This document shows positions 21,490 to 61,975 of a stretch of 64,000 bases of DNA, one piece after another (positions within the stretch are counted from its first letter, which is position 1; each line of letters starts with the position of its first letter). This DNA comes from Lamellibrachia columna (taxonomy: Eukaryota > Annelida > Polychaeta > Sabellida > Siboglinidae). The stretch spans positions 38,233,845 to 38,297,844 of the forward strand of contig OY759271.1 of assembly GCA_963662155.1 (NCBI GenBank), given 5' to 3'. A program made the position numbers and the translations under genes. Below the pieces are notes generated by a model, which was not told the origin of the DNA, did no database searches, and worked only from the letters and a program-made list of their open reading frames with translations.

Positions 21490-22480
21490 ATTAGTTTTGA
21501 ATGAGATAAAAAGAATTAGTGTTCATATTACAAAAGGTCGTGGCATCAAGTTTGAATGGTGACAATATGTAACTGGAACTTTTAGACGTGAAGCAGTGAA
21601 AAGCTAGACGAGAGAGCATATTCAAACTGGCGTTATTGCATTTTAAGTAACTCTGCATAAAATGCGCAATTCGATTCATAATCTGAATTTGAATCGGGAG
21701 ACATTCTGCTAAAAGTGGCACCAAATTACAATGGTTGCAATCAGGTAGATAAAACAGTTTCCTGATACCCGTGCGCCATGTAGTATAAAACTCATCTACA
21801 TATTTATCTTGCAAGTTCCAGAGACATACACCATAGAAAGTGGTACAACATAAATAATTGACGTGTTGTACTTATATTACAAAACCCAATCGTGTGGCCT
21901 AAATGCAATCCTGTTTTACTATATTTCGCTTGTGTTCCATCAAGGTAAAATGGGGAATCAGGACGACTGCTATATTTAAGTTGGCATTTTGATGGCTTAA
22001 ATTTTAAATCATATTTAGATGCAAATTCTAGACAGATATCACACATTTTGTTCAATGCATATTATTGATGGAGCTATTAAAGATGTTATTATCTGCTTAG
22101 CCAATAGCACCATAATACTTATGACCTATCATACCACCAAACCCAGACATGCAGAGTCGTGTTAACAGTTCATCTATATATACAAATATATATATATATA
22201 TAAACTCCACCCTACTTAACTCCATTGGTAGTTGAGAAATCAACTGACATGTTGGAATTATTTCACGAAACGTTCAAGTGTTTATTACTGTACATGTAAA
22301 GTAAAATCTGATAAGCAAGGGATTCATTCCTCTATCCCAGAGAGTAAATAAAAAAGTTTGACATAATTTACTTTATCAAATGCTTTCGTAACATCTAATA
22401 ATGGCACAAACACATCAGATTTATTATGTTGGAAATAGGTAACAGTCTCCATTAGCGCAAGCGTACATTTAGCTGTAGAG
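21490..22480 (-). mobile_element. Degraded LINE reverse transcriptase fragment
   Basis: Read on the minus strand from 22480: QFGFKPQSSTAKCTLALMET, SDVFVPLLDVTKAFDKVNYV (motif A), then a damaged YADD region (GAIG-stop-ADN near 22112-22090). KYDLKFKPSKCQLKYSS, GLHLGHTIG and FYTTWRTGIRKLFYLP follow. Stops and frameshifts are present. The 66-bp array next door begins at exactly the QFGFKP motif of this RT. Confidence 0.85.
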
Positions 22481-25400
22481 CTCTGAGGTTTAAAACCAAA
22501 CTGTACATCACTTGTTTTAAAAACAAACGTACATTTAGCTGTAGAACTGTGAGGTTTAAAACCAAACTGTACATCACTTGTTTTAAAAACAAGCGTACAT
22601 TTAGCTGTAGAGCTGTGAGGTTTAAAACCAAACTGTACATCACTTGTTTTAAAAACAAACGTACATTTAGCTGTAGAGCTGTGAGGTTTAAAACCAAACT
22701 GTACATCACTTGTTTTAAAAACAAACGTACATTTAGCTGTAGAGCTGTGAGGTTTAAAACCAAACTGTACAACACTTGTTTTAAAAACAAACGTACATTT
22801 AGCTGTAGAGCTGTGAGGTTTAAAACCAAATTGTACATCACTTGTTTTAAAAACAAGCGTACATTTAGCTGTAGAGCTCTGAGGTTTAAAACCAAACTGT
22901 ACAACACTTGTTTTAAAAACAAACGTACATTTAGCTGTAGAGCTGTGAGGTTTAAAACCAAACTGTACATCACTTGTTTTAAAAACAAACGTACATTTAG
23001 CTGTAGAGCTGTGAGGTTTAAAACCAAACTGTACATCACTTGTTTTAAAAACAAACGTACATTTAGCTGTAGAGCTGTGAGGTTTAAAACCAAACTGTAC
23101 AACACTTGTTTTAAAAACAAACGTACATTTAGCTGTAGAGCTGTGAGGTTTAAAACCAAACTGTACAACACTTGTTTTAAAAACAAACGTACATTTAGCT
23201 GTAGAGCTGTGAGGTTTAAAACCAAACTGTACATCACTTGTTTTAAAAACAAGCGTACATTTAGCTGTAGAGCTGTGAGGTTTAAAACCAAACTGTACAT
23301 CACTTGTTTTAAAAACAAACGTACATTTAGCTGTAGAGCTGTGAGGTTTAAAACCAAACTGTACAACACTTGTTTTAAAAACAAACGTACATTTAGCTGT
23401 AGAGCTGTGAGGTTTAAAACCAAACTGTACAACACTTGTTTTAAAAACAAATGTACATTTAGCTGTAGAGCTGTGAGGTTTAAAACCAAACTGTACATCA
23501 CTTGTTTTAAAAACAAGCGTACGTTTAGCTGTAGAGCTGTGAGGTTTAAAACCAAACTGTACATCACTTGTTTTAAAAACAAACGTACATTTAGCTGTAG
23601 AGCTGTGAGGTTTAAAACCAAACTGTACATCACTTGTTTAAAAACAAGCGTACATTTAGTTGTAGAGCTGTGAGGTTTAAAACCAAACTGTACATCACTT
23701 GTTTTAAAAACAAACGTACATTTAGCTGTAGAGCTGTGAGGTTTAAAACCAAACTGTACAACACTTGTTTTAAAAACAAACGTACATTTAGCTGTAGAGC
23801 TGTGAGGTTTAAAACCAAACTGTACAACACTTGTTTTAAAAACAAACGTACATTTAGCTGTAGAGCTGTGAGGTTTAAAACCAAACTGTACATCACTTGT
23901 TTTAAAAACAAGCGTACATTTAGCTGTAGAGCTAACGCCACAACACTACAAATTCCTTGTACTTGCTACTTGGTAATAAAACGTATCTTATCTTATCTTA
24001 AAACCAAACTGTACATCACTTGTTTTAAAAACAAACATACATTTAGCTGTAGAGCTGTGAGGTTTAAAACCAAACTGTACAACACTTGTTTTAAAAACAA
24101 ACGTACATTTAGCTGTAGAGCTGTGAGGTTTAAAACCAAACTGTACATCACTTGTTTTAAAAACAAGCGTACATTTAGCTGTAGAGCTGTGAGGTTTAAA
24201 ACCAAACTGTACATCACATGTTTTAACAACAAACGTACATTTAGCTGTAGAGCTGTGAGGTTTAAAACCAAACTGTACATCACTTGTTTTTAAAAAAAAC
24301 GTACATTTAGCTGTAGAGCTGTGAGGTTTAAAACCAAACTGTACATCACTTGTTTTAAAAACAAGCGTACATTTAGCTGTAGAGCTGTGAGGTTTAAAAC
24401 CAAACTGTACATCACTTGTTTTAAAAACAAGCGTACATTTAGCTGTAGAGCTGTGAGGTTTAAAACCAAACTGTACATCACTTGTTTTAAAAACAAGCGT
24501 ACATTTAACTGTAGAGCTGTGAGGTTTAAAACCAAACTGTACATCACTTGTTTTAAAAACAAGCGTACATTTAGCTGTAGAGCTGTGAGGTTTAAAACCA
24601 AACTGTACATCACTTGTTTTAAAAACAAGCGTACATTTAGCTGTAGAGCTGTGAGGTTTAAAACCAAACTGTACATCAAATGTTTTAACAACAAACGTAC
24701 ATTTAGCTGTAGAGCTGTGAGGTTTAAAACCAAACTGTACATCACTTGTTTTACAAACAAACGTACATTTAGCTGTAGAGCTGTGAGGTTTAAAACCAAA
24801 CTGTACATCACTTGTTTTAAAAACAAGCGTACATTTAGCTGTAGAGCTGTGAGGTTTAAAACCAAACTGTACATCACTTGTTTTAAAAACAAGCGTACAT
24901 TTAGCTGTAGAGCTGTGAGGTTTAAAACCAAACTGTACATCACTTGTTTTAAAAACAAGCGTACATTTAGCTGTAGAGCTGTGAGGTTTAAAACCAAACT
25001 GTACATCACTTGTTTTAAAAACAAGCGTACATTTAGCTGTAGAGCTGTGAGGTTTAAAACCAAACTGTACATCACTTGTTTTAAAAACAAGCGTACATTT
25101 AGCTGTAGAGCTGTGAGGTTTAAAACCAAACTGTACATCACATGTTTTAACAACAAACGTACATTTAGCTGTAGAGCTGTGAGGTTTAAAACCAAACTGT
25201 ACATCACTTGTTTTACAAACAAACGTACATTTAGCTGTAGAGCTGTGAGGTTTAAAACCAAACTGTACATCACTTGTTTTAAAAACAAGCGTACATTTAG
25301 CTGTAGAGCTGTGAGGTTTAAAACCAAACTGTACATCACTTGTTTTAAAAACAAGCGTACATTTAGCTGTAGAGCTGTGAGGTTTAAAACCAAACTGTAC

Positions 25401-26575: not shown

Positions 26576-26786
26576 GCAACATGTCGTTGACCATTTGTCG
26601 TTGACAAAGTCTTCATTGCTATTTTCCACGCATTTTGTGCTTAAATAATTCCACAAAAACAGTTCGTTTCCGATACAACTTAATTACATTTCAAATGATT
26701 TAACAAGATTTGCCATCCAAGCCAAAGGCCCAGATGGCAAGTGGACAAGGTAGCCATTGGCTTATCGAGAGTCCAACAATGTTCAT

Positions 26787-29660
26787 CTACTTATAGCCCG
26801 CCCTCCTGAGATATGTGTCAACCTTGTTTTTAAACATATTCACGCTGCTAGCAGTTACACAATCTGTAGACAATTTGTTCCATTCATTTATTGTCCTCTG
26901 TGAGAACGAGTGCTTCCTGATGTCCAATCTACATTGATCCTTTACTAATTTTACCTCATGTCCTCTAGTTCTGCTATCCTTCTTGAGTGAGAAAAACATA
27001 TTTCTATCAATATTTTCATACCCATTCAATATCTTAAAAACTTCAATCTAATCTCCTCTTAACCTCCTTGTCTCTAGAGTTGTTAAACCACATTCTTTCA
27101 GGCGTTCTTCATAACAAAGGTCTCTCAGTTCTGGAATCATTTTAGTTGCTCTCCTTTGTATGTGTTCAAGCGTATCTATATCCTTCTTACGATATGGTCT
27201 CCATGCTTGTATACAGTATTCTAAATGAGGTCTAACTATTGCTTTATAAAGAGGTATAATTAACTTTTTTCCCTTGTATGTTATGTTTCTTCTAATCAAT
27301 CCAAGAATTTGATTACCCTTTGAAGCTGCAATACCACACTGCTCTGAAACTTTCATATCAGTGCTTATTGTAACTCCTAAGTCCTTTTCTTTTACAGTAA
27401 TACCCAGAACAGTATCTCCCATTTTATAGTTTACATTCAAGTTCCTATGTCCTGTATGTAGGCATTTACATTTCCCAAAATTGAACAACATCTGCCATTT
27501 CTCAGACCATTTCACTAATCTGTCTAGATCGTTTTGTAAATGTTGTTTATCACCATCAGTATTAACCTTTCTAAACAGTTTTGTGTCATCTGCAAATTTC
27601 AGTACGTTACTTGTTATACTGTCGTCCAAGTCATTGATATAAATTAAGAATAATATAGGTCCTAATACTGATCCTTGAGGTACCCCACTCAAAACCGATT
27701 TCCAATTAGAAACTTCTCCATCTACTACAACTCGTTGTCTTCTGTCAGTCAGCCATTGTTCTATCCAGTCAGTTATGCTATCCCCGATACCATGGGCTTT
27801 TAATTTAAGTAGTAATCTTTGATGTGGCACTTTGTCAAAAGCTTTCTGAAAATCTAAGTAGATAATATCTACTGGCGATCCCACGTCTATCCACTTAGTG
27901 ATTTCTTCCAAAAAACATAACATATTTGTTAAGCATGACCTCGCTTTAAGGAATCCATGTTGAGATGAATTTAATAATTTATGCTTAACGAGGAAGTCCA
28001 CCATATGGTCTTTAATTAACCTTTCTAATAATTTACAAATCACCGACGTTAAACTCACTGGTCTGTAATTCTCTGACTTATTTCTCGAACCCTTTTTAAA
28101 TAATGGTATGATGTTTGCTTCTTTCCATTCAAACGGAACAACTCCCTCTTTTAATGACAAGTTGAATACTCTTGCAAGTGGTATACTGATTTGTTCTACT
28201 GTTTCCATTAGTAATTTTGGAGGAATCCCATCCACTCCCGGTGATTTGTTATCCTTCATTGCCTTTATTTTCTTAGCTACCAATTCTGGAGTTACAACTA
28301 ACGGACCTAAATAGTCAGATTTAGCCCCCTGAAATTTAGCATCAGCAACTGGTAATGAACTAATATATTCTTTGGTAAACACTGAACTGAAGTAACCATT
28401 TAGGTCTTCCGCCATTAAAAACCCCTGTGATATTATATTTCCAGCACTGTCTTCTAGAGGTCCAACCTTGTCTTGTACGTTTTGTTTACTCCTGACATAT
28501 GCATAAAAACTCTTGCTGTCATTTTTTATGTTACATGCTAGTTTTTGCTCATAGCTTCTTTTAGATTGTCTGATTTCAGTTGTAGCTGCATTAAGTGCCT
28601 CTTTGTATTTTGCATAGTCTTCGTCCTTTCTGGTACGCCTATAAACCCTCCACATAGTTTGTTTTAGCATTATTTTTCTAATAGCCTCTTTTGACCAGTG
28701 TTTCTTTCTACACCATTTTCCTTGTTTTTGGAAGGGAACAAATTTATCGATGATACTCTCAATTTCATATTTTAGAATATTCCAACATTCAATTGCGGTC
28801 TTATTCATCAGCATGTTATTCCAATCTAGCTTTGCTAAGTATTTTCTCATATCTTTGTAGTTACCTTTGTGGAAGTTTCTCTTGTACGTTTTCTTATTTT
28901 TACTTTCTGATTTTACATTGATGTCAAAATGTATTTGATTATGGTCACTATTACCCAATGGTTCAAATATTTTTACATTGTCCACTAATTCTTTTTGTGA
29001 TGACAAAACTATATCTAATACATTTTCTCCCCTGGTTGGTTCTAGTACATGCTGAGTAAGAAAGCTATCCTGGATTAAAAATAGAAATTGTTGGTCCTCA
29101 ATCCCTGTGCTCTCTAGAGAATTCCATTGTATGTGTCCATGGTTAAAATCTCCCATTATGATACATTCCCCTTTACTAACTTCCTTTATATCGTTTTTAT
29201 TTTTGTGTTGTCCACTTCGTTTATGTTTGGACTTCGGTAAACTAATCCAATAGTTAATTTTGAATTTCCTGAAACAATTTTGCACCAAACAGCTTCATCG
29301 CAATCTGCTTCCCTTTCTAGTTTTATTTCATAAGCCTGAATAGATTCTTTAACATATAAAATAACTCCCCCCGCCCCTTCTTCCTATTCGATCTTTCCTA
29401 AACATTACATATCCTGTCAGTCCTAATTCAGCATCTGTTATATCTATGTTGGCCCATGATTCAGTTATACCAATTATGTGAGGGTCAATATCTTCTACCA
29501 TAATGTTTAATTCGTTTTTCTTATTTACTATGCTCCTTGCATTTAAACATACGCATCTATAACCTTTTTCAGAGATGTTTTTCGGATGATTTGATATTGG
29601 TTTATCTGTGCTAGTGGCCTCTTGTTCTGCTTGAGACACCTCTAGGTAACCCCCCTGCAC
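26787..29660 (-). pseudogene. LINE copy A ORF2 (endonuclease and reverse transcriptase) with two compensating indels and a nonsense mutation
   Basis: Compared with copy B, the frame gains a G in a homopolymer at 29367-29372 (6 instead of 5). It loses an A at 29194-29198 (5 instead of 6), so about 60 residues are read out of frame before the frame is restored. A CAG-to-TAG change at 27048-27050 cuts off the last about 80 codons (26787-27047). RT motifs NKSPGVDGIPP, YLDFQKAFDKVPH, SGVPQGSVLGP and FADDTKLF are intact. The copy cannot make full-length ORF2 as read here. Confidence 0.9.
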
Positions 29661-29662
29661 TT

Positions 29663-30625
29663 CTAGTTTAAAGAATGTTTACTTCCAAAAATATTTGTCA
29701 TTGTACCCATTTCACTATCTACTGCTGCTGAAAGTTTGTCCGCGAATACTGCCGCCCCCTTTCCACTTAAATGAAGCCCATCCTTCATGTACATATCAGC
29801 CCTCCCAACAAAACTTCCCCATAAATCCACAAATCCAACTTCCTCTTCCCTACATAGCTTCTGGACTAACATGTTAATTGCCATCCCCCGACAATTTCGA
29901 TATTTGTGACCCCTCCTGCCCATTACAGGTAAAATCCCTGACAGTATTACCTGCTCAACCCGCGTCTGTTTTAGTGTTCTGACCAACTGCCTATATTTCC
30001 TAACTATGGCAGTTGTACCCTCCCTCTCTACGTTATTTGTCCCTACGTGTACTAAAACAGATCCACCCTTACCCGAGCCTACGATGTTTTTTACCCTCTC
30101 AGTTATCGCCTCTATTTTGGCTCCAGGCAAGCAGACCACCACATCATCTCCCTTGTTTAAGACTCTGTCGGTCTTCCTAATTATCGAATCCCCCACAAAC
30201 ACCCTCGCTCTCTTCTTCATCCCCTCTATCACTGCTGCAGAATAACTCTTCCGTTCGATCCCCTCCATCACATTCTGTCCTGACCCCTTCCCTCCTGTCT
30301 CCCCCACTTCCCACTCCTTTGCTCTTGTCTCTCTCACTCCCCTCTCCTTCACTCCGGTTGTTTTCCCTCCCGTCTCCCCCACTCCCTTCTCCTTCCCTCC
30401 TGTCTCCCCTACTCCCCTCTCCTTCACTCCGGTTGTCTTCCCTCCCGTTCCTTTCCTTCCCGTCTCCTTACGTCCTGTCTCCCTACGACCTGTCACCTTC
30501 CCTCCTCTCAGCTTCCTCCCAGGCTGTGGTGAGCTCTCCCTAGCATCTCTTGTGTCACTTGCTTCACTTGATGCCTGATGGATTTGGAAGGTTTTGTTTG
30601 GATATCTGTAATGTCGTCGACTTGG
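29663..30625 (-). CDS. LINE copy A ORF1: basic repeat region plus SGNH/GDSL esterase domain, N-terminus incomplete
   Basis: The open frame begins at 30625 with no ATG, so it is a partial ORF. A K/E/G/T-rich region with near-repeats of TGGKEKGVGETGG precedes the esterase. Block I is VFVGDSIIRK, the GxN block is VHVGTNN, and the catalytic D-x-x-H block is DGLHLSGKGA. Esterase ORF1 proteins are known from CR1, L2 and Rex-type LINEs, where they are thought to act in RNP or membrane association. It ends SKHSLN-TAG, with the last two sense codons TTA AAC forming a slippery heptamer. Confidence 0.85.
   Translation of the reverse strand, partial: PSRRHYRYPNKTFQIHQASSEASDTRDARESSPQPGRKLRGGKVTGRRETGRKETGRKGTGGKTTGVKERGVGETGGKEKGVGETGGKTTGVKERGVRETRAKEWEVGETGGKGSGQNVMEGIERKSYSAAVIEGMKKRARVFVGDSIIRKTDRVLNKGDDVVVCLPGAKIEAITERVKNIVGSGKGGSVLVHVGTNNVEREGTTAIVRKYRQLVRTLKQTRVEQVILSGILPVMGRRGHKYRNCRGMAINMLVQKLCREEEVGFVDLWGSFVGRADMYMKDGLHLSGKGAAVFADKLSAAVDSEMGTMTNIFGSKHSLN
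29666..29672 (-). promoter_or_regulatory. Candidate -1 frameshift heptamer TTTAAAC, LINE copy A
   Basis: Identical to the site in copy B: zero frame T TTA AAC, then the TAG of ORF1 (29663-29665). ORF2 is in the -1 frame. Confidence 0.5.
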
Positions 30626-34369: not shown

Positions 34370-36097
34370 TTAAAATTAAAACATTTTAACAAATAAAAGC
34401 AAAAACATTTCTCCTTTGCAGATTGTAGTATTTTAGCATAGCCAGTTGGATGGCGTGTGTAGAAAGGGTTAACTGCGTGTGGAGAAAGGGTTAACTGCGT
34501 GTTTAGATAGTCGCGCGGATGCCATTAGTGTGATGAGAGCAGTCGACTCCTCTGAGTAAAGAAAGTGCCACCGTCGACCACATATCTGTCGGAAGCGGCC
34601 ACAGTCCTTTATGATACTTGGTCGCCGTTGTTGTCTGAATGGTTCCTGTTCGTGAGTGTGTATTGTCGCCATCTCTCCGGTACATTGTGTGATTTTATGT
34701 CGCCAGAAAAAGTAGTTTTAATTACGCAAAAATACTGGATAATGTAAGATGATGGCTAAGCTAAATCTTGAGTCGAGTGTCGTCTGTTATGTAGGTTTTG
34801 CTTACGGAAGCAAGACAAAGCCTTCCGTCGCACGTCTTGTGCAAACTAATACATAACACAGTCGGAAAGTTATTTTGTCCGGGAAATTAACAGATTAGCG
34901 ATTTCAGTCTCGCCTGGAAGAACGGATAAATAGCTTACGCCAGGGGGAGGCATCAACGCCACGAATGCCTACAGAGAAATTATCGATACCATTTTAGACG
35001 TTTTGTTGTGTTGCTATGGGTAAATATATGGCTAAATGAGAATGCTCGTCTTCGCTGTTTGTTATATTCCTCTCTTTCGCCAAGGGCCTATTAGACATAT
35101 TGGTGTATGGCTAAGGCGATAGATGTGTAACCAGTAGCAAGGCCTATGCACCTAATATTTGACCAGTTGTTATCTCTTCAATTTAATTATCTTTCGTCGG
35201 TACATATGCGTTACTTTGATGAGACACGAGCCTCCTCAAAAGGCCAACTTAGTCGTGAACTCGAACACAGAGGCCTGTTTCGGATGTCAGGTTCATTGAC
35301 TTTGTTTTGCTGATATCGCCGACACGGCTCCCATGTGGTTCACGAGCAGCGGTTGATCGACTGATATGGCCGGAACAGTGAATTTGGCGAGGAGAAACCG
35401 ACCGTCATTCACCACGAAATGCACCGATTTCGAAGTCAATCGATTCAGATGGATATCGACAGTTTCTTAATACAACTCCGAATGAAATCGCCTTGACTAG
35501 TGCGACGGACTTGAGACGATATAAGCGGATGATGTCCCCTAGCGAGATCCCTGGGCACGACACTTAATGGCCCACTTCAGACGATGATTCGTCCTTCGGG
35601 TGATACGATTGTCAGGATAAACTAACCGCAGCATTGTAGTGTAGCAATCGCGCCGCGGCCGCGCGCACATAATAGACGGCGGCAGCCTCTGCGAGTTCAG
35701 GACTCACAATCCGATTAACAGGTCAAGTACCACCCGTGCGACCGGCCGATAGGACATTACGGCACCAAAAAAAAAACAGTAGTGCTGGACGTCAGTAAAT
35801 ACATTTGCGCGCAAGACGGCTATGGTCTGGGGAAGGTGAACCACGTATAGGGGGAGTGACAGTTCCCTGTATGCTGAAAACTGTCGCATGACACTCTCAT
35901 CCATACCGTCTGTGTTACTGCGTGTGTAGAGTACGCAATAGCGCCGGCCAATGACTGGCGATTGTACTCGACTGTAAACTACCTTTGGATTGTCACTTGG
36001 CAAATGAGCGACGCTCAGTAAGGGAGGCAGAAGTGCGAAACGAAACTGTTTCGTAGGCGACAACCGCGTTGACGCTTTCCCGCCAACGCCTGGCGTC
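34370..36097. promoter_or_regulatory. Region upstream of the CACNG-like gene, with GC-rich proximal part
   Basis: No convincing exon or element. The part near 35640-35700 (CGCGCCGCGGCCGCGCGC) is GC-rich and may belong to the promoter or 5' UTR. A direct repeat GTGGAGAAAGGGTTAACTGC lies near 34450-34500. Confidence 0.45.
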
Positions 36098-36371
36098 ATG
36101 AACGAGACGCAGTGTCGCAGTCGTCTGCTGCAGCTGGCGTGCCTGTTAAGCGGTGGCACGGCCTTCCTTTCGCTACTTATCGCGGTCACGTCTGACCACT
36201 GGCTCCAGGCGGCCGATCCCGTGCCAGTACCGAGCTTGACGGACATGAACCTGGCAGAGGAAGTGGAGACGAAGCCCGCGGACGATGCTTACGACCGTGT
36301 CAAGATGCGCTACGTGGTCATAAACACCTTTTCGGGGCTTTGGAGGGTTTGTATCATGTTGCCCGCCGAAG
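36098..36371 (+). CDS. CACNG-like exon 1 (residues 1-91): TM1 and first half of the extracellular loop
   Basis: [20 protein letters not shown] starts TM1. TSDHW and FSGLWRVC follow. Donor GAAG|GTTGGT, phase 1. An antisense ORF over this exon is a shadow of its GC-rich codons. Confidence 0.9.
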
Positions 36372-39300
36372 GTTGGTACAAGCGCGTGTCAGTTAACCAC
36401 AACATAACCGTTTCATTGCTCATAGTCCTGACTGCCCCTTCCTGTCTGGTCTGCCCAGTGGCGCTTATCCAATTTACAGATGTCTCTCTCAGGTGATATC
36501 CACGTAGTTATCTACGAACTATGAATGCTCAGACCTGTGCTGCTGAATCAACGTTTCTAACCGACGAAGTACCTAATGTAGTATCCCATGCAATGTTTGA
36601 CTTGTTTTGAAAAATAATGTGCCGCAGAAGGCTCAGAATTCACCAATATGACAGTATCCGGTCTACAAATCTTGCCCACTTCACGGCACCAACGTTGTAG
36701 TCTAACGGTGACTACTAATACGCTTTACAAGGTCCGGATTATCGGATGTTTGAATTGCAAGAGGCACCCATACCAACGATATACCCATACCAACGATATA
36801 CCCATACCAACGATATACTGTATAAATGTTACGATACGGTCTACAGAGGAAAGCTCAGGCATAGAAAGCGCTTAATATAATAAAAAAATATGGTCTCAAT
36901 CTATATAGGCCATTGATACTCAAACTATTCGCATTCATTATATAATCAGTCCTGCTGGACGGATGTTAAACTTGACACTGACGTTAACATAGACAAGGGA
37001 CTCGACGGATACCACACTAGAATGTTGCGTGAAGTACGTCAGAACAGGAAGGGGAGCATATTATGAATTCAGAGCTATACGCAGGACTCCCATAGCTGAG
37101 AGGAAAGATTTTCACAAGAAGGCTCAAGTGTGCTGGACACCGCAACCGTAACACTGAACGTGTACAGTGGGATCTCAAACACGACCAAGTAGGCAAGTAC
37201 CCAGAGAAAGAGCAAGCCTTAATTCGACTGACTAATAATTGATCAAGGACACGGACTAAATGGCAAGAACCGTCGACCTGCGTGATTGATAGGAAGGTGT
37301 GAAGTGTCCTCGCTGAACGGGGACACGAATCGACATGACTGTGTGACAACAGTAACAACCTGACACGATTATGAAATGTTTTGGCCATAATGATTGGCGT
37401 GATTACTTCTACGAACGTCCAATGACGTGCCGAGATTGAGTATGGTGCTGAAGCCTTTCTTGCTCAGATATATTTGTCTCTTGGGTCCAACTTGGTTCAC
37501 CGTTAAGTGTACGACTCTTCAGGTGACTTAGTAGCTCAACTTCATGATTAGCGTGACACGAGTACATGACGTGATGATTGTGCAGTACGTGACGTGATGA
37601 TTGTGCAGTTTCGTTTGTAGAAATGTGTTCTACATTGTTTTCAACATCAGCTTTGTTTTATCCGATCTGACAGACCGAACAAGCAGAGTTGTACTAACGA
37701 CAGTTTTATCGCGGATAAGCTGCAGTTTATTGGGCGTGATACTAATGTACAACCGAGACGAGATAAGAAGAAACGAACCAGAAATGGGGCTAAATCAAAT
37801 TACATAGGGTGGTTAAACAGTAGCTAATAAAGACGATAAAGGATAATAAATCCCTTGAAGTGGATGAGATTCCACACACAAAGCTAGTGAAGGAGACAGT
37901 AAAAAAATTAAGGAGAAACAAAAGGCGTGGTTTTGGTGCAATGCACCTCAAAGATATAATAAAAACTAACCGTGTGTAACTAAAATCAAGAATATCACGC
38001 CAGTTTACTCAGAATGTGTTTTAGAAGTGGGAGATTCAGGCATGTTAACCAGCGCTACCCATAAGCGCATGCGCAGTTCTATGGAAATCGGGTAACGTAG
38101 ACTACGCGTGACGTATTAAATGAGGCCGGAGAACTAACGCAAAGTCCTTTTCTACAAAGGCGCTATAGCTTTATAAGAGGGGTGGCCTCTCGTTGCAGCG
38201 AGGGGGGTATATATCTGCTGCTTGGTAAGGTGGCCTATGGTGATAGGGGGACCACTGTCTATGTATAAACTTCACTAGATTGTGCATACGAAACAACTCC
38301 ACCAGGTAGAGTTGTGTGAACGCCTCCTGTGTATCTGCGTCCAGCAAAGATCCATCAACATGGTGCGACTGATAGTCCAGTCAATCTACGCCCAAAAGAT
38401 CCATCAACATGGTGCGACTGATAGTCCAGTCAATCTACGCCCAAAAGATCCATCAACATGGTGCGACTGATATTCCAGTCAATCTACGCCCAAAAAGATC
38501 CATCAACATGGTGCGACTGATAGTCCAGTCAATCTACGCCCAAAAAGATCCATCAACATGGTGCGACGATAGTCCAGTCAATCTACGCCCAAAAGATCCA
38601 TCAACATGGTGCGACTGATAGTCCAGTCAATCTACGCCCAAAAGATCCATCAACATGGTGCGACTGATAGTCCAGTCAATCTACGCCCAAAAAGATCCAT
38701 CAACATGGTGCGACTGATAGTCCAGTCAATCTACGCCCAAAAAGATCCATCAACATGGTGCGACTGATAGTCCAGTCAATCTACGCCCAAAAGATCCATC
38801 AACATGGTGCGACTGATAGTCCAGTCAATCTACGCCCAAAAGATCCATCAACATGGTGCGACTGATAGTCCAGTCAATCTACGCCCAAAAAGATCCATCA
38901 ACATGGTGCGACGATAGTCCAGTCAATCTACGCCCAAAAGATCCATCAACATGGTGCGACTGATAGTCCAGTCAATCTACGCCCAAAAGATCCATCAACA
39001 TGGTGCGACTGATAGTCCAGTCAATCTACGCCCAAAAAGATCCATCAACATGGTGCGACTGATAGTCCAGTCAATCTACGCCCAAAAGATCCATCAACAT
39101 GGTGCGACTGATAGTCCAGTCAATCTACGCCCAAAAGAGGGTCAACCTCAAACAAATTGCAATAGTAATTATGTTGGCGTTTTTAGTTAGTACTAATTAC
39201 ATATAATCTCAGACACCAACTCTGTGACCATGCTTTGGAACTTCCCTTGCTACTGTGAGGAGAAATTAAAGAAGTTCGCTACTACAATGAAATCATGGTA

Positions 39301-56115: not shown

Positions 56116-56694
56116 CATTGCATGGCGCAACTCGACAAGGAGACCCTATAACTGGTAGACGCACTCTATGAGACCCACGTTGACATTGCATGGCGCAACT
56201 CGACAAGAAGACCCTATAACTGGTAGACGCACTCTATGAGACCCACGTTGACATTGCATGACGCAACTCGACAAGGAGACCCTATAACTGGTAGACGCAC
56301 TCTATGAGACCCACGTTGACATTGCATGGCGCAACTCGACAAGAAGACCCTATAACTGGTAGACGCACTCTATGAGACCCACGTTGACATTGCATGGCGC
56401 AACTCGACAAGAAGACCCTATAACTGGTAGACGCACTCTATGAGACCCACGTTGACATTGCATGGCGCAACTCGACAAGGAGACCCTATAACTGGTAGAC
56501 GCACTCTATGAGACCCACGTTGACATTGCATGGCGCAACTCGACAAGGAGACCCTATAACTGGTAGACGCACTCTATGAGACCCACGTTGACATTGCATG
56601 ACGCAACTCGACAAGGAGACCCTATAACTGGTAGACGCACTCTATGAGACCCACGTTGACATTGCATGGCGCAACTCGACAAGGAGACCCTAAA
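56116..56694. repeat. 68-bp minisatellite, left part (about 8.5 units)
   Basis: Core CATTGCATGGCGCAACTCGA, with ACTGGTAGACGCACTCTATG later in the unit. Variants are GGCG/GACG and AAGG/AAGA. It is interrupted by LINE copy B. Confidence 0.96.
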
Positions 56695-57187
56695 CAAGGG
56701 AGATGATGTGGTGGTCTGCTTGCCTGGAGCCAAAATAGAGGCGATAACTGAGAGGGTAAAAAACATCGTAGGCTCGGGTAAGGGTGGATCTGTTTTAGTA
56801 CACGTAGGGACAAATAACGTAGAGAGGGAGGGTACAACTGCCATAGTTAGGAAATATAGGCAGTTGGTCAGAACACTAAAACAGACGCGGGTTGAGCAGG
56901 TAATACTGTCAGGGATTTTACCTGTAATGGGCAGGAGGGGTCACAAATATCGAAATTGTCGGGGGATGGCAATTAACATGTTAGTCCAGAGGCTGTGTAG
57001 GGAAGAGGAAGTTGGATTTGTGGATTTATGGGGAAGTTTTGTTGGGAGGGCAGATATGTACATGAAGGATGGGCTTCATTTAAGTGGAAAGGGGGCGGCA
57101 GTATTCGCGGACAAACTTTCAGCAGCAGTAGATAGCGACTTGGGTACAATGACAAATGTTTTTGGAAGTAAACATTCTTTAAACTAG
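56666..57187 (+). CDS. Chimeric ORF: array-derived start fused to truncated LINE ORF1 esterase
   Basis: The ATG at 56666 lies in a 68-bp array unit (MAQLDKETL) and runs in frame into ORF1 from NKGDDVVVCLPG onward. The fragment keeps the VHVGTNN and DGLHLSGKGA blocks but lacks the block with the nucleophilic serine (GDS), so an active esterase is not expected. It ends TTA AAC TAG. Whether it is transcribed is unknown. Confidence 0.7.
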   Translation: MAQLDKETLNKGDDVVVCLPGAKIEAITERVKNIVGSGKGGSVLVHVGTNNVEREGTTAIVRKYRQLVRTLKQTRVEQVILSGILPVMGRRGHKYRNCRGMAINMLVQRLCREEEVGFVDLWGSFVGRADMYMKDGLHLSGKGAAVFADKLSAAVDSDLGTMTNVFGSKHSLN

Positions 57188-60063
57188 AAGTGCAGGGGGG
57201 TTACCTAGAGGTGTCTCAAGCAGAACAAGAGGCCACTAGCACAGATAAACCAATATCAAATCATCCGAAAAACATCTCTGAAAAAGGTTATATATGCGTA
57301 TGTTTAAATGCAAGGAGCATAGTAAATAAGAAAAACGAATTAAACATTATGGTAGAAGATATTGACCCTCACATAATTGGTATAACTGAATCATGGGCCA
57401 ACATAGATATTACAGATGCTGAATTAGGACTGACAGGATACGTAATGTTTAGGAAAGATCGAATAGGAAGAAGGGGCGGGGGAGTTATTTTATATGTTAA
57501 AGAATCTATTCAGGCTTATGAAATAAAACTAGAAAGGGAAGCAGATTGCGATGAAGCTGTTTGGTGCAAAATTGTTTCAGGAAATTCAAAATTAACTATT
57601 GGATTAGTTTACCGAAGTCCAAACATAAACGAAGAGGACAACACAAAAATAAAAAACGCTATAAAGGAAGTTAGTAAAGGGGAATGTATCATAATGGGAG
57701 ATTTTAACCATGGACACATACAATGGAATTCTCTAGAGAGCACAGGGATTGAGGATCAACAATTTCTATGTTTAATCCAGGATAGCTTTCTTACTCAGCA
57801 CGTACTAGAACCAACCAGGGGAGAAAATGTATTAGATATAGTTTTGTCATCACAAAAAGAATTAGTGGACAATGTAAAAATATTTGAACCATTGGGTAAT
57901 AGTGACCATAATCAAATACATTTTGACATCAATGTAAAATCAGAAAGTAAAAATAAGAAAACGTACAAGAGAAACTTCCACAAAGGTAACTACAAAGATA
58001 TGAGAAAATACTTAGCACAGCTAGATTGGAATAACATGCTGATGAATAAGACCGCAATTGAATGCTGGAACATTCTTAAATATGAAATTGAGAGTATCAT
58101 CGATAAATTTGTTCCCTTCCGAAAACAAGGAAAACGGTGTAGAAAGAAACATTTGTCAAAAGAGGCTATTAGAAAAATAATGCTAAAACAAACTATGTGG
58201 AGGGTTTATAGGCGTACCAGAAAGGAAGAAGACTATGCAAAATACAAAGAGGCACTTAATGCAGCTACAACTGAAATCAGACAATCTAAAAGAAGCTATG
58301 AGCAAAAACTGGCATGTAACATAAAAAATGACAGCAAGAGTTTTTATGCATATGTCAGGAGTAAACAAAACGTACAAGACAAGGTTGGACCTCTAGAAGA
58401 CAGTGCTGGAAATATAATATCACAGGGGTTTTTAATGGCGGAAGACCTAAATGGTTACTTCAGTTCAGTGTTTACCAAGGAAGATATTAGTTCATTACCA
58501 GTTGCTGATGCTAAATTTCAGGGGGCTAAATCTGAATATTTAGGACCGTTAGTTGTAACTCCAGAATTGGTAGCTAAGAAAATAAGGGCAATGAAGGATA
58601 ACAAATCACCGGGAGTGGATGGGATTCCTCCAAAATTACTAATGGAAACAGTAGATCAAATCAGTATACCACTTGCAAGAGTATTCAACTTGTCATTAAA
58701 AGAGGGAGTTGTTCCGTTTGAATGGAAAGAAGCAAACATCATACCATTATTTAAAAAGGGTTCGAGAAATAAGTCAGAGAATTACAGACCAGTGAGTTTA
58801 ACGTCAGTGATTTGTAAATTATTAGAAAGGTTAATTAAAGACCATATGGTGGACTTCCTCGTTAAGCATAAATTATTAAATTCATCTCAACATGGATTCC
58901 TTAAAGCAAGGTCATGCTTAACAAATATGTTATGTTTTTTGGAAGAAATCACTAAGTGGATAGACGTGGGATCGCCAGTAGATATTATCTACTTAGATTT
59001 TCAGAAAGCTTTTGACAAAGTGCCACATCAAAGATTGCTACATAAATTAAAAGCCCATGGTATCGGGGATAGCATAACTGACTGGATAGAACAATGGCTG
59101 ACTGACAGAAGACAACGAGTTGTAGTAGATGGAGAAGTTTCAAATTGGAAATCGGTTTTGAGTGGGGTACCTCAAGGGTCAGTACTAGGACCTATATTAT
59201 TCTTAATTTATATCAATGACTTGGACGACAGTATAACAAGTAACGTACTGAAATTTGCGGATGACACAAAACTGTTTAGAAAGGTTAATACTGATGGTGA
59301 TAAACAACATTTACAAAACGATCTAGACAGATTAGTGAAATGGTCTGAGAAATGGCAGATGCTGTTCAATTTTGGGAAATGTAAATGCCTACATACAGGA
59401 CATGGGAACTTGAATGTAAACTATAAAATGGGAGATACTGTTCTGGGTACTACTGTAAAAGAAAAGGACTTAGGAGTTACAATAAGCGCTGATATGAAAG
59501 TTTCAGAGCAGTGTGGTATTGCAGCTTCAAAGGGTAATCAAATTCTTGGATTGATTAGAAGAAACATAACATACAAGGGAAAAAAGTTAATTATACCTCT
59601 TTATAAAGCAATAGTTAGACCTCATTTAGAATACTGTATACAAGCATGGAGACCATATCGTAAGAAGGATATAGATACGCTTGAACGCATACAAAGGAGA
59701 GCAACTAAAATGATTCCAGAACTTAGAGACCTTAGTTATGAAGAACGCCTGAAAGAATGTGGTTTAACAACTCTAGAGACAAGGAGGTTAAGAGGAGATC
59801 AGATTGAAGTTTTTAAGATATTGAATGGGTATGAAATTATTGATAGAAATATGTTTTTCTCACTCAAGAAGGATAGCAGAACTAGAGGACATGAGGTAAA
59901 ATTAGTAAAGGATCAATGTAGATTGGACATCAGGAAGCACTCGTTCTCACAGAGGACAATAAATGAATGGAACAAATTGTCTACAGATTGTGTAACTGCT
60001 AGCAGCGTGAATATGTTTAAAAACAAGGTTGACACATATATCAGGAGGGCGGGTTATAAGTAG
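57172..60063 (+). CDS. LINE copy B ORF2: apurinic-type endonuclease plus reverse transcriptase, apparently intact
   Basis: The frame is open from 57172 (after a TAA at 57169-57171). Counted from the GTG at 57190 it has 957 residues. The endonuclease has N40 (LNARS), E67 (GITESW), D171/N173 (GDFNHGH) and SDH 238-240. The RT has NKSPGVDGIPP, motif A YLDFQKAFD with D603, SGVPQGSVLGP at 658 and FADD at 689-692. It ends RRAGYK. No ATG occurs in frame before M54, which is downstream of catalytic N40. Translation must therefore come from ORF1 frameshifting, re-initiation or a non-AUG start. Confidence 0.93.
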   Translation, partial: TFFKLEVQGGYLEVSQAEQEATSTDKPISNHPKNISEKGYICVCLNARSIVNKKNELNIMVEDIDPHIIGITESWANIDITDAELGLTGYVMFRKDRIGRRGGGVILYVKESIQAYEIKLEREADCDEAVWCKIVSGNSKLTIGLVYRSPNINEEDNTKIKNAIKEVSKGECIIMGDFNHGHIQWNSLESTGIEDQQFLCLIQDSFLTQHVLEPTRGENVLDIVLSSQKELVDNVKIFEPLGNSDHNQIHFDINVKSESKNKKTYKRNFHKGNYKDMRKYLAQLDWNNMLMNKTAIECWNILKYEIESIIDKFVPFRKQGKRCRKKHLSKEAIRKIMLKQTMWRVYRRTRKEEDYAKYKEALNAATTEIRQSKRSYEQKLACNIKNDSKSFYAYVRSKQNVQDKVGPLEDSAGNIISQGFLMAEDLNGYFSSVFTKEDISSLPVADAKFQGAKSEYLGPLVVTPELVAKKIRAMKDNKSPGVDGIPPKLLMETVDQISIPLARVFNLSLKEGVVPFEWKEANIIPLFKKGSRNKSENYRPVSLTSVICKLLERLIKDHMVDFLVKHKLLNSSQHGFLKARSCLTNMLCFLEEITKWIDVGSPVDIIYLDFQKAFDKVPHQRLLHKLKAHGIGDSITDWIEQWLTDRRQRVVVDGEVSNWKSVLSGVPQGSVLGPILFLIYINDLDDSITSNVLKFADDTKLFRKVNTDGDKQHLQNDLDRLVKWSEKWQMLFNFGKCKCLHTGHGNLNVNYKMGDTVLGTTVKEKDLGVTISADMKVSEQCGIAASKGNQILGLIRRNITYKGKKLIIPLYKAIVRPHLEYCIQAWRPYRKKDIDTLERIQRRATKMIPELRDLSYEERLKECGLTTLETRRLRGDQIEVFKILNGYEIIDRNMFFSLKKDSRTRGHEVKLVKDQCRLDIRKHSFSQRTINEWNKLSTDCVTASSVNMFKNKVDTYIRRAGYK
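57178..57184 (+). promoter_or_regulatory. Candidate -1 programmed ribosomal frameshift heptamer TTTAAAC, LINE copy B
   Basis: In ORF1 the final codons are TCT TTA AAC TAG, which gives X XXY YYZ in the correct zero frame. The -1 frame reads TTT AAA CTA GAA and continues as ORF2. A possible imperfect stem starts at CTAG 57205, about 20 nt downstream, which is farther than the usual 5-9 nt; I see no convincing pseudoknot by eye. Confidence 0.55.
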
Positions 60064-60162
60064 ATGAACATTGTTGGACTCTCGATAAGCCAATGGCTTC
60101 CTTGTCCACTTGCCATCTGGGCCTTTGGCTTGGATGGCAAATCTTGTTAAATCTTGTTAAAA

Positions 60163-61556
60163 CTGGTAGACGCACTCTATGAGACCCACGTTGACATTGC
60201 ATGGCGCAACTCGACAAGGAGACCCTATAACTGGTAGACGCACTCTATGAGACCCACGTTGACATTGCATGGCGCAACTCGACAAGGAGACCCTATAACT
60301 GGTAGACGCACTCTATGAGACCCACGTTGACATTGCATGACGCAACTCGACAAGGAGACCCTATAACTGGTAGACGCACTCTATGAGACCCACGTTGACA
60401 TTGCATGGCGCAACTCGACAAGGAGACCCTATAACTGGTAGACGCACTCTATGAGACCCACGTTGACATTGCATGGCGCAACTCGACAAGGAGACCCTAT
60501 AACTGGTAGACGCACTCTATGAGACCCACGTTGACATTGCATGGCGCAACTCGACAAGGAGACCCTATAACTGGTAGACGCACTCTATGAGACCCACGTT
60601 GACATTGCATGGCGCAACTCGACAAGGAGACCCTATAACTGGTAGACGCACTCTATGAGACCCACGTTGACATTGCATGGCGCAACTCGACAAGGAGACC
60701 CTATAACTGGTAGACGCACTCTATGAGACCCACGTTGACATTGCATGACGCAACTCGACAAGGAGACCCTATAACTGGTAGACGCACTCTATGAGACCCA
60801 CGTTGACATTGCATGGCGCAACTCGACAAGGAGACCCTATAACTGGTAGACGCACTCTATGAGACCCACGTTGACATTGCATGGCGCAACTCGACAAGGA
60901 GACCCTATAACTGGTAGACGCACTCTATGAGACCCACGTTGACATTGCATGGCGCAACTCGACAAGAAGACCCTATAACTGGTAGACGCACTCTATGAGA
61001 CCCACGTTGACATTGCATGACGCAACTCGACAAGAAGACCCTATAACTGGTAGACGCACTCTATGAGACCCACGTTGACATTGCATGGCGCAACTCGACA
61101 AGGAGACCCTATAACTGGTAGACGCACTCTATGAGACCCACGTTGACATTGCATGGCGCAACTCGACAAGGAGACCCTATAACTGGTAGACGCACTCTAT
61201 GAGACCCACGTTGACATTGCATGACGCAACTCGACAAGGAGACCCTATAACTGGTAGACGCACTCTATGAGACCCACGTTGACATTGCATGGCGCAACTC
61301 GACAAGGAGACCCTATAACTGGTAGACGCACTCTATGAGACCCACGTTGACATTGCATGGCGCAACTCGACAAGGAGACCCTATAACTGGTAGACGCACT
61401 CTATGAGACCCACGTTGACATTGCATGGCGCAACTCGACAAGGAGACCCTATAACTGGAAGACACACTCTATGAGACCCACGTTGACATTGCATGACGCA
61501 ACTCGACAAGGAGACCCTATAACTGGTAGACGCACTCTATGAGACCCACGTTGACA
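60163..61556. repeat. 68-bp minisatellite, right part (about 20.5 units)
   Basis: Same unit as 56116-56694, resuming at ACTGGTAGAC exactly where the left part stopped. The GACG variant recurs at intervals of five to eight units. Confidence 0.96.
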
Positions 61557-61975
61557 TTTCTTATTTAGAGTCCTTGCTGTATTTAGTAAAAGGTTCATAC
61601 GCCATTTCATTGTTGTGCGTATTAGTTATCACGAATGTTTTGTAATATGTATTATGTAACACATAAACTTTATGAAAAATTAAACATGTTTTATGTTTGA
61701 TAAAGATACTTGGGATGCAGAAACAGTAAACGATACGGAAGTGACTAACGGGAGAACCGTAGAACATGTTCATGAACAAGTGAGGTAATAATTTGTAATT
61801 GTCCGAGGAAAGACACAGTCATTTAAAACCGTGGCTTTTATAAAGAATTTGGACGTGCGATTCAATTTGTGTGATTAAATTACCTATATGTGATGTAGAT
61901 GTTTTTACAAATATTTGCTGTTTTTATAATGTATATATTGTACTATTATTTGTTGGTGTGGTGTGTAATACCCAG

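Follow-up and report, generated by a model that had tools for sequence, protein, structure and literature searches.

The title of a 1992 paper on a long interspersed nuclear element (LINE) of the rat reportedly speaks of reinitiation "instead of frameshifting." Translation of the second open reading frame (ORF) of LINEs is an old question, and the usual answer, in the relevant passages of three sources, is reinitiation or unusual initiation (PMC5009743, PMC2881922, PMC5972666). The LINE passages of a recoding review treat these elements only as cases of bypassing or unusual initiation (PMC5009743), and for Zorro3 a passage reports that the ATG of ORF2 matters (PMC1965478). In its passages on slippery sites, the same review counts U_UUA_AAC among the shiftiest, names G_UU(A) for equine arteritis virus, and quotes a survey in which 28 of 51 animal long terminal repeat (LTR) elements have pol in the −1 frame relative to gag (PMC5009743). 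The frameshift passages found in PMC1925062 and PMC4255032 concern damaged copies, and a word search of the available text of four papers on CR1/L2-type esterase LINEs (PMC4120745, PMC3905857, PMC4316615, PMC4176376) did not return the word frameshift. No report of a −1 frameshift joining ORF1 to ORF2 in a non-LTR element was found in the available text of the open-licence literature. Here, we report a CR1-like LINE in a 64,000-nucleotide stretch of Lamellibrachia columna DNA (GenBank assembly GCA_963662155.1, contig OY759271.1, positions 38,233,845 to 38,297,844; "the window," in whose coordinates all positions below are given), which, judged from its sequence and that of its relatives, probably expresses ORF2 fused to ORF1 through low-level −1 ribosomal frameshifting.

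The element is a non-LTR retrotransposon with an esterase in ORF1 and an APE-type endonuclease and reverse transcriptase (RT) in ORF2 (Table 1). Read directly, the 3' end of ORF1 is ...AAA CAT TCT TTA AAC TAG, in which a perfect slippery heptamer, T TTA AAC, stands in the zero frame and the stop (57185 to 57187) follows directly, as the initial annotation had stated. That annotation also placed ORF2 in the −1 frame with a 16-nt overlap, stop included, and a stop-to-stop ORF list agrees, with a TAA (57169 to 57171) directly preceding the open frame. The first in-frame AUG of ORF2 lies about 160 nt 3' of the ORF1 stop; it encodes the residue earlier called M54, counted from GTG 57190, and no ATG precedes it. 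The Asn earlier numbered 40 is Asn46 in the open-frame count and does precede this AUG; we take it to be catalytic from the presumed role of L1 Asn14. Because this first AUG comes 3' of the predicted catalytic Asn46 and within the endonuclease fold, ribosomes must enter ORF2 farther upstream and by a route other than an AUG.

A start at AUG 57349, with the upstream part untranslated, is therefore most improbable. It is the first AUG, and the automatic gene calls P0008 and P0013 begin at the corresponding Met; however, a structural model suggests that the endonuclease needs residues upstream of it, and starting there would remove the predicted first strand and Asn46. The LNARS motif that precedes it is, moreover, common to the relatives that reach so far. 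We rejected this start for the loss of Asn46.

When codons are sampled from this copy's ORF1 (163 codons), the P value is 0.013 for any XXXYYYZ heptamer at the last three positions and 0.00018 for TTTAAAC exactly before the stop. Junction aside, other in-frame slippery-type heptamers occur once in the ORF1 fragment and four times in ORF2, so the heptamer alone is weak evidence, and it is position and phase that make the junction notable. A second slippery-type heptamer, T TTA AAT (57303 to 57309, ORF2 frame), lies at Leu45-Asn46, on the predicted catalytic Asn codon.

Table 1. Coordinates of the features discussed, in window positions
Feature	Position	Strand	Remarks
ORF1 3' part, SGNH/GDSL esterase domain and tail ...KHSLN	56691-57187	+	5'-truncated; PF13472, E 1.6e-11
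Perfect X XXY YYZ slippery heptamer T TTA AAC	57178-57184	+	ORF1 (zero) frame; TTA and AAC are ORF1 codons
ORF2 (APE-type endonuclease, then RT)	57172-60063	+	−1 phase relative to ORF1; 963 codons and stop
GTG, nearest in-frame near-cognate start 3' of the stop	57190-57192	+	2 nt behind TAG; candidate start under reinitiation
Codon of Asn46, predicted catalytic Asn of the endonuclease	57307-57309	+	Presumed equivalent of L1 Asn14 by structural offset
First in-frame ATG of ORF2	57349-57351	+	Residue 60 of the open frame; within the endonuclease fold
14-bp hairpin in the 3' untranslated region (UTR)	60110-60140	+	z −3.89 for 60060-60165
Second copy of the family	~26700-30560 (limits approximate)	−	Heptamer at 29666-29672

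Relatives were collected with three protein searches (the best 120 of 879, 120 of 1446 and 120 of 743 matches), which gave 162 ORF2-type and 120 ORF1-type proteins. All are mechanical gene calls, which show M as the first residue even where the codon is GTG or TTG (P0001 has M where the window has GTG). A locus search of viral contigs and genome contigs and a pattern scan of viral contigs found no relatives, and tblastn against phages found none either, with one weak RT match (24.1% identity). The junction can be read in P0009, P0023, P0241, P0251 and P0256 (73%, 78%, 72%, 71% and 71% identical to the window in ORF2, respectively). In a 20-row tree, P0023 grouped with P0009, P0251 with P0256 and P0019, and P0241 with P0011; P0251 and P0256 share 96% identity and thus count as one lineage. 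P0262 and P0263 (62 to 63% identity to the window) were too distant for the junction to be placed. Two further proteins were rejected as junction evidence: P0258, which has an internal deletion, and P0259, in which the ORF2 of one copy runs in frame into the ORF1 of another. In the P0241 gene call a single frame covers esterase, endonuclease and RT, an indel at the junction having apparently fused them, and this protein was rejected as proof of slippage.

Across the site, the −1 frame of the window encodes Phe-Lys-Leu (FKL). Judged from peptides only, FKL is present in three of the four relatives that bear on the site (P0023, P0251, P0256) and VKL in the fourth (P0009), so a few relatives seem to keep TTTAAAC; in P0009, Val-Lys-Leu would be consistent with G TTA AAC if ORF1 ends Leu-Asn there. 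Reading phase in the relatives was assessed from protein, without DNA, by checking the peptide upstream of FKL for other-frame compatibility with two esterase ORF1 sequences. Compatibility in the +1 frame was 0.96, 0.95 and 0.90 over 25, 40 and 60 residues for P0251, 0.92 and 0.93 over 25 and 40 residues for P0256, and 1.00 and 0.88 over 25 and 40 residues for P0023, versus best +2-frame values of 0.56, 0.47 and 0.38. ORF2 is therefore in the −1 phase relative to ORF1 in the families of all three testable relatives, which represent two lineages.

The ORF1 tails can be set beside these peptides. Among the 120 ORF1-type C-termini of the window family, 111 end SLN, four CLN, one YLN, one SFN and one FWK, and two run past the stop. 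The ORF1 part of P0259, which lies behind a P0012-type ORF2, ends KVRYLN; tails thus end Leu-Asn in two families, the assignment of the P0259 tail being uncertain because its ORF1 belongs to another copy. Leu-Asn-stop in one frame and Phe-Lys-Leu-[Val/Asp/Glu] in the other together require T TTA AA[C/T] TAG. The tail DSGLGKEHSLN*, proposed for P0251, is compatible with its peptide and forces this same sequence.

The main rival is termination at the TAG followed by reinitiation at a nearby non-AUG codon, such as GTG 57190, which would release a free ORF2 protein; we consider it unlikely, if well ahead of the other alternatives. Coupled reinitiation is described for SART1, at UAAUG, and proposed for L1 in passages of PMC2881922 and PMC5972666. 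At this junction the GTG sits just behind the stop, and a Val directly follows the Leu of the site in P0251, P0256, P0241 and P0009, compatible with UAGUG. Against this, P0023 does not retain the GTG, having Asp-Ser at these two positions, and no AUG is near the stop; an AUG overlapping or adjoining the ORF1 stop, as in SART1, was not found at the junction. A calicivirus-type reinitiation signal was rejected, since in the 200 nt before the stop the UGGGA core occurs once, about 140 nt upstream (57043). Reinitiation also leaves the conservation of the −1 peptide FKL, upstream of any restart, unexplained.

Sites of −1 frameshifting typically have a downstream stem or pseudoknot. The initial annotation had conceded that none was apparent by eye at 5 to 9 nt, and computation bore this out: folding and a pseudoknot scan found no stem or pseudoknot beyond shuffled sequence at or behind the site, including 57185 to 57300. 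For four stretches at the site or 3' of it, folding z scores were +0.95, −0.32, +0.63 and +0.62; the stretch before it scored −1.12. By a crude energy score, 104 of 200 shuffled sequences gave an H-type pseudoknot at least as good as the best one here, and 123 of 200 did so for the hairpin. In the minimum-energy fold of 57185 to 57300, itself no better than chance, the CAGGGG located 8 nt 3' of the heptamer takes part in weak long-range pairing. The same folding does detect the 3' UTR hairpin. A structured stimulator was accordingly rejected, and the signal, if it works, would consist of the heptamer and the adjacent UAG or include a stimulator that these methods miss. Natural −1 sites without a stimulatory structure exist; a missing stimulator thus weakens the class assignment and not the mechanism.

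The start of ORF2 and the folding results also bear on ORF1-independent entry, through an internal ribosome entry site or scanning to a non-AUG codon, with the heptamer a relic or a chance occurrence. A NARS motif (regular expression, which missed P0262) is reached by 34 of the 162 ORF2-type proteins. In 31 of these there is no Met between the first residue (or the junction) and the motif, a count that includes P0057, P0244 and P0248, which begin at the motif itself and are hence uninformative; a Met does precede it in P0009, P0254 and P0258. The 31 fit internal entry as they fit any non-AUG start, and the four other heptamers in ORF2 show that such motifs arise elsewhere in the element. Internal entry would nevertheless make a coincidence of the heptamer's position, its phase and the conserved peptide, and the junction holds no structured RNA beyond chance; we regard it as very unlikely.

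Several observations weigh against the frameshift itself, beside the lack of structure. The junction is shown by only 5 of the 162 ORF2-type proteins, and among these FKL is seen in only two lineages besides the window (P0023; P0251/P0256). P0009 has Val for Phe, so TTTAAAC is not kept there, and P0241 (RYLKLVGQGG), fused by its indel, says only that one copy has a fused frame. The ORF1 protein ending SFN (1 of 120) has a changed heptamer codon. For the P0251, P0256 and P0023 families, the ORF1 tails are proposals by homology; EHSLN* does not fit P0256, for which ESSLN* or ENSLN* fit among those tried, with the same nucleotides at heptamer and stop. Given SLN*, Phe-Lys would arise by chance with a probability of about 0.18 per lineage (0.42 × 0.42, from codon use: TTA is 0.42 of Leu codons, and T is the third base in 0.42 of Ser codons), so FKL conservation argues only moderately for the site. 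The earlier proposal that ORF2 is made as a fusion thus stands in part: the heptamer, the −1 phase in three relatives, the kept FKL and the missing AUG speak for it, and the absent structure and the departure of P0009 from TTTAAAC speak against it.

Under −1 frameshifting, most ribosomes would end at the TAG and yield the ORF1 protein, with its zinc-finger-like N terminus, basic repeats and esterase. A minority would shift by −1 on T TTA AAC, with the tRNAs for Leu and Asn pairing anew with TTT AAA, and would continue in the −1 frame through CTA GAA GTG to give ...KHSLN-LEVQGG.... About 35 mostly disordered residues would then link the ORF1 part to the endonuclease and RT. The shift is probably rare, because no strong downstream structure is present; the UAG just behind the heptamer may aid it, and little ORF2 protein would suffice for a LINE. 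That slippage occurs, at what rate, with what help from the UAG, and with the fusion as the active form, is what we infer from this arrangement.

The copy described (copy 1, approximately 56691 to 60160, plus strand) interrupts a 68-bp minisatellite array, units of which flank it on both sides (56116 to 56692 and 60161 to 61558). Its ORF1 open frame runs from 56660 and begins in minisatellite sequence, with LINE sequence starting near 56691; being 5'-truncated, copy 1 cannot make a whole ORF1 itself, and the frameshift claim concerns the family. ORF2 matches Pfam families RVT_1 (E 3.1e-33) and Exo_endo_phos_2 (E 4.1e-14); its endonuclease fold-matches the TRAS1 and L1 endonucleases, and its RT matches L1 and R2 proteins. 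In other copies, full-length ORF1 has about 430 residues (P0219 and others): a Cys-rich, zinc-finger-like N terminus, recognized by eye and without a Pfam match at E ≤ 1, is followed by a heptad-like stretch, then basic repeats, then the esterase. Among solved structures, P0219 matches 4c1b, named "ORF1-encoded protein" (E 1.9e-22), which we take to be the esterase of zebrafish ZfL2-1. The CR1-like label is our assumption, taken from the initial annotation and the association of CR1 with an esterase/zinc-finger ORF1; the tree made here holds only relatives of the family.

The ORF1 of copy 2 is longer than that of copy 1 but apparently still 5'-truncated, and its ORF2 is broken by two single-base indels and a premature stop. 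Aligned, the two copies differ in 79 of 3467 columns, 25 of which are end overhangs, too few differences for a selection test; none falls within 57159 to 57292, so the junction is identical in both. The family is abundant: the cluster of protein P0001 alone has 2269 member sequences. Both copies carry a hairpin, UUGCCAUCUGGGCC-UUU-GGCUUGGAUGGCAA, in the 3' UTR (copy 2 at 26700 to 26790, minus strand, z −2.16), which is a likely tail signal for the RT. A tail hairpin is described as essential in ZfL2-1 and ZfL2-2 in a passage of PMC4176376.

Over its whole length, the window is very rich in minisatellites: Tandem Repeats Finder gives 27 rows scoring at least 300 (some overlapping; periods 12 to 345), and many of these repeats produce long spurious ORFs. 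A short RT fragment (22324 to 22500, minus strand; RVT_1, E 0.0033, below the curated cut-off) borders a 66-bp tandem array. A stretch weakly similar to the claudin/PMP-22 family (36008 to 36496, plus strand; E 0.0042, below cut-off) is possibly a host gene exon.

An abundant LINE family with a heptamer at its junction would be a ready test system for an ORF1-ORF2 fusion made by frameshifting. If the frameshift is real, the esterase would be covalently joined to the RT in some molecules, and the family would join the −1 frameshift cases that lack a clear stimulatory structure. It would also mean that non-LTR elements had arrived at control of the ORF1:ORF2 ratio by slippage independently of LTR elements and retroviruses, with a bare heptamer and stop as the whole signal.

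As to its class, we lean slightly towards an esterase-bearing CR1-like LINE lineage that works in the manner of retroviral gag-pol, with −1 tandem slippage at a U UUA AAC that has little structure and abuts the ORF1 UAG (one relative perhaps using G UUA AAC), the esterase-endonuclease-RT fusion being kept across subfamilies that differ by 22 to 29% in ORF2 protein. The heptamer is of the same class as in retroviral and LTR gag-pol −1 frameshifting and at viral U UUA AAC sites; unlike those gag-pol systems, the window element is non-LTR, has an esterase ORF1 and shows no structure beyond chance. It shares the two-ORF LINE organization of SART1 and mammalian L1, whose ORF2 translation, in passages of PMC2881922 and PMC5972666, depends on translation of ORF1. 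Unlike SART1, with its UAAUG stop-start, and L1, with its spacer, its junction has no near AUG, and its frames overlap at the heptamer. HeT-A, one of the telomeric non-LTR elements of Drosophila along with TART, is a partial parallel, in that its gag is said in a passage of PMC5009743 to need a frameshift. There, however, it is gag itself that needs the shift, and TART presumably reinitiates at a start codon; the passage describes neither as a −1 heptamer joining ORF1 to ORF2 (PMC5009743). Another parallel is zebrafish ZfL2-1, a CR1/L2-type element with an esterase ORF1: the ORF1 esterase matches 4c1b, and the 3' hairpin resembles stringent-type LINE tails.

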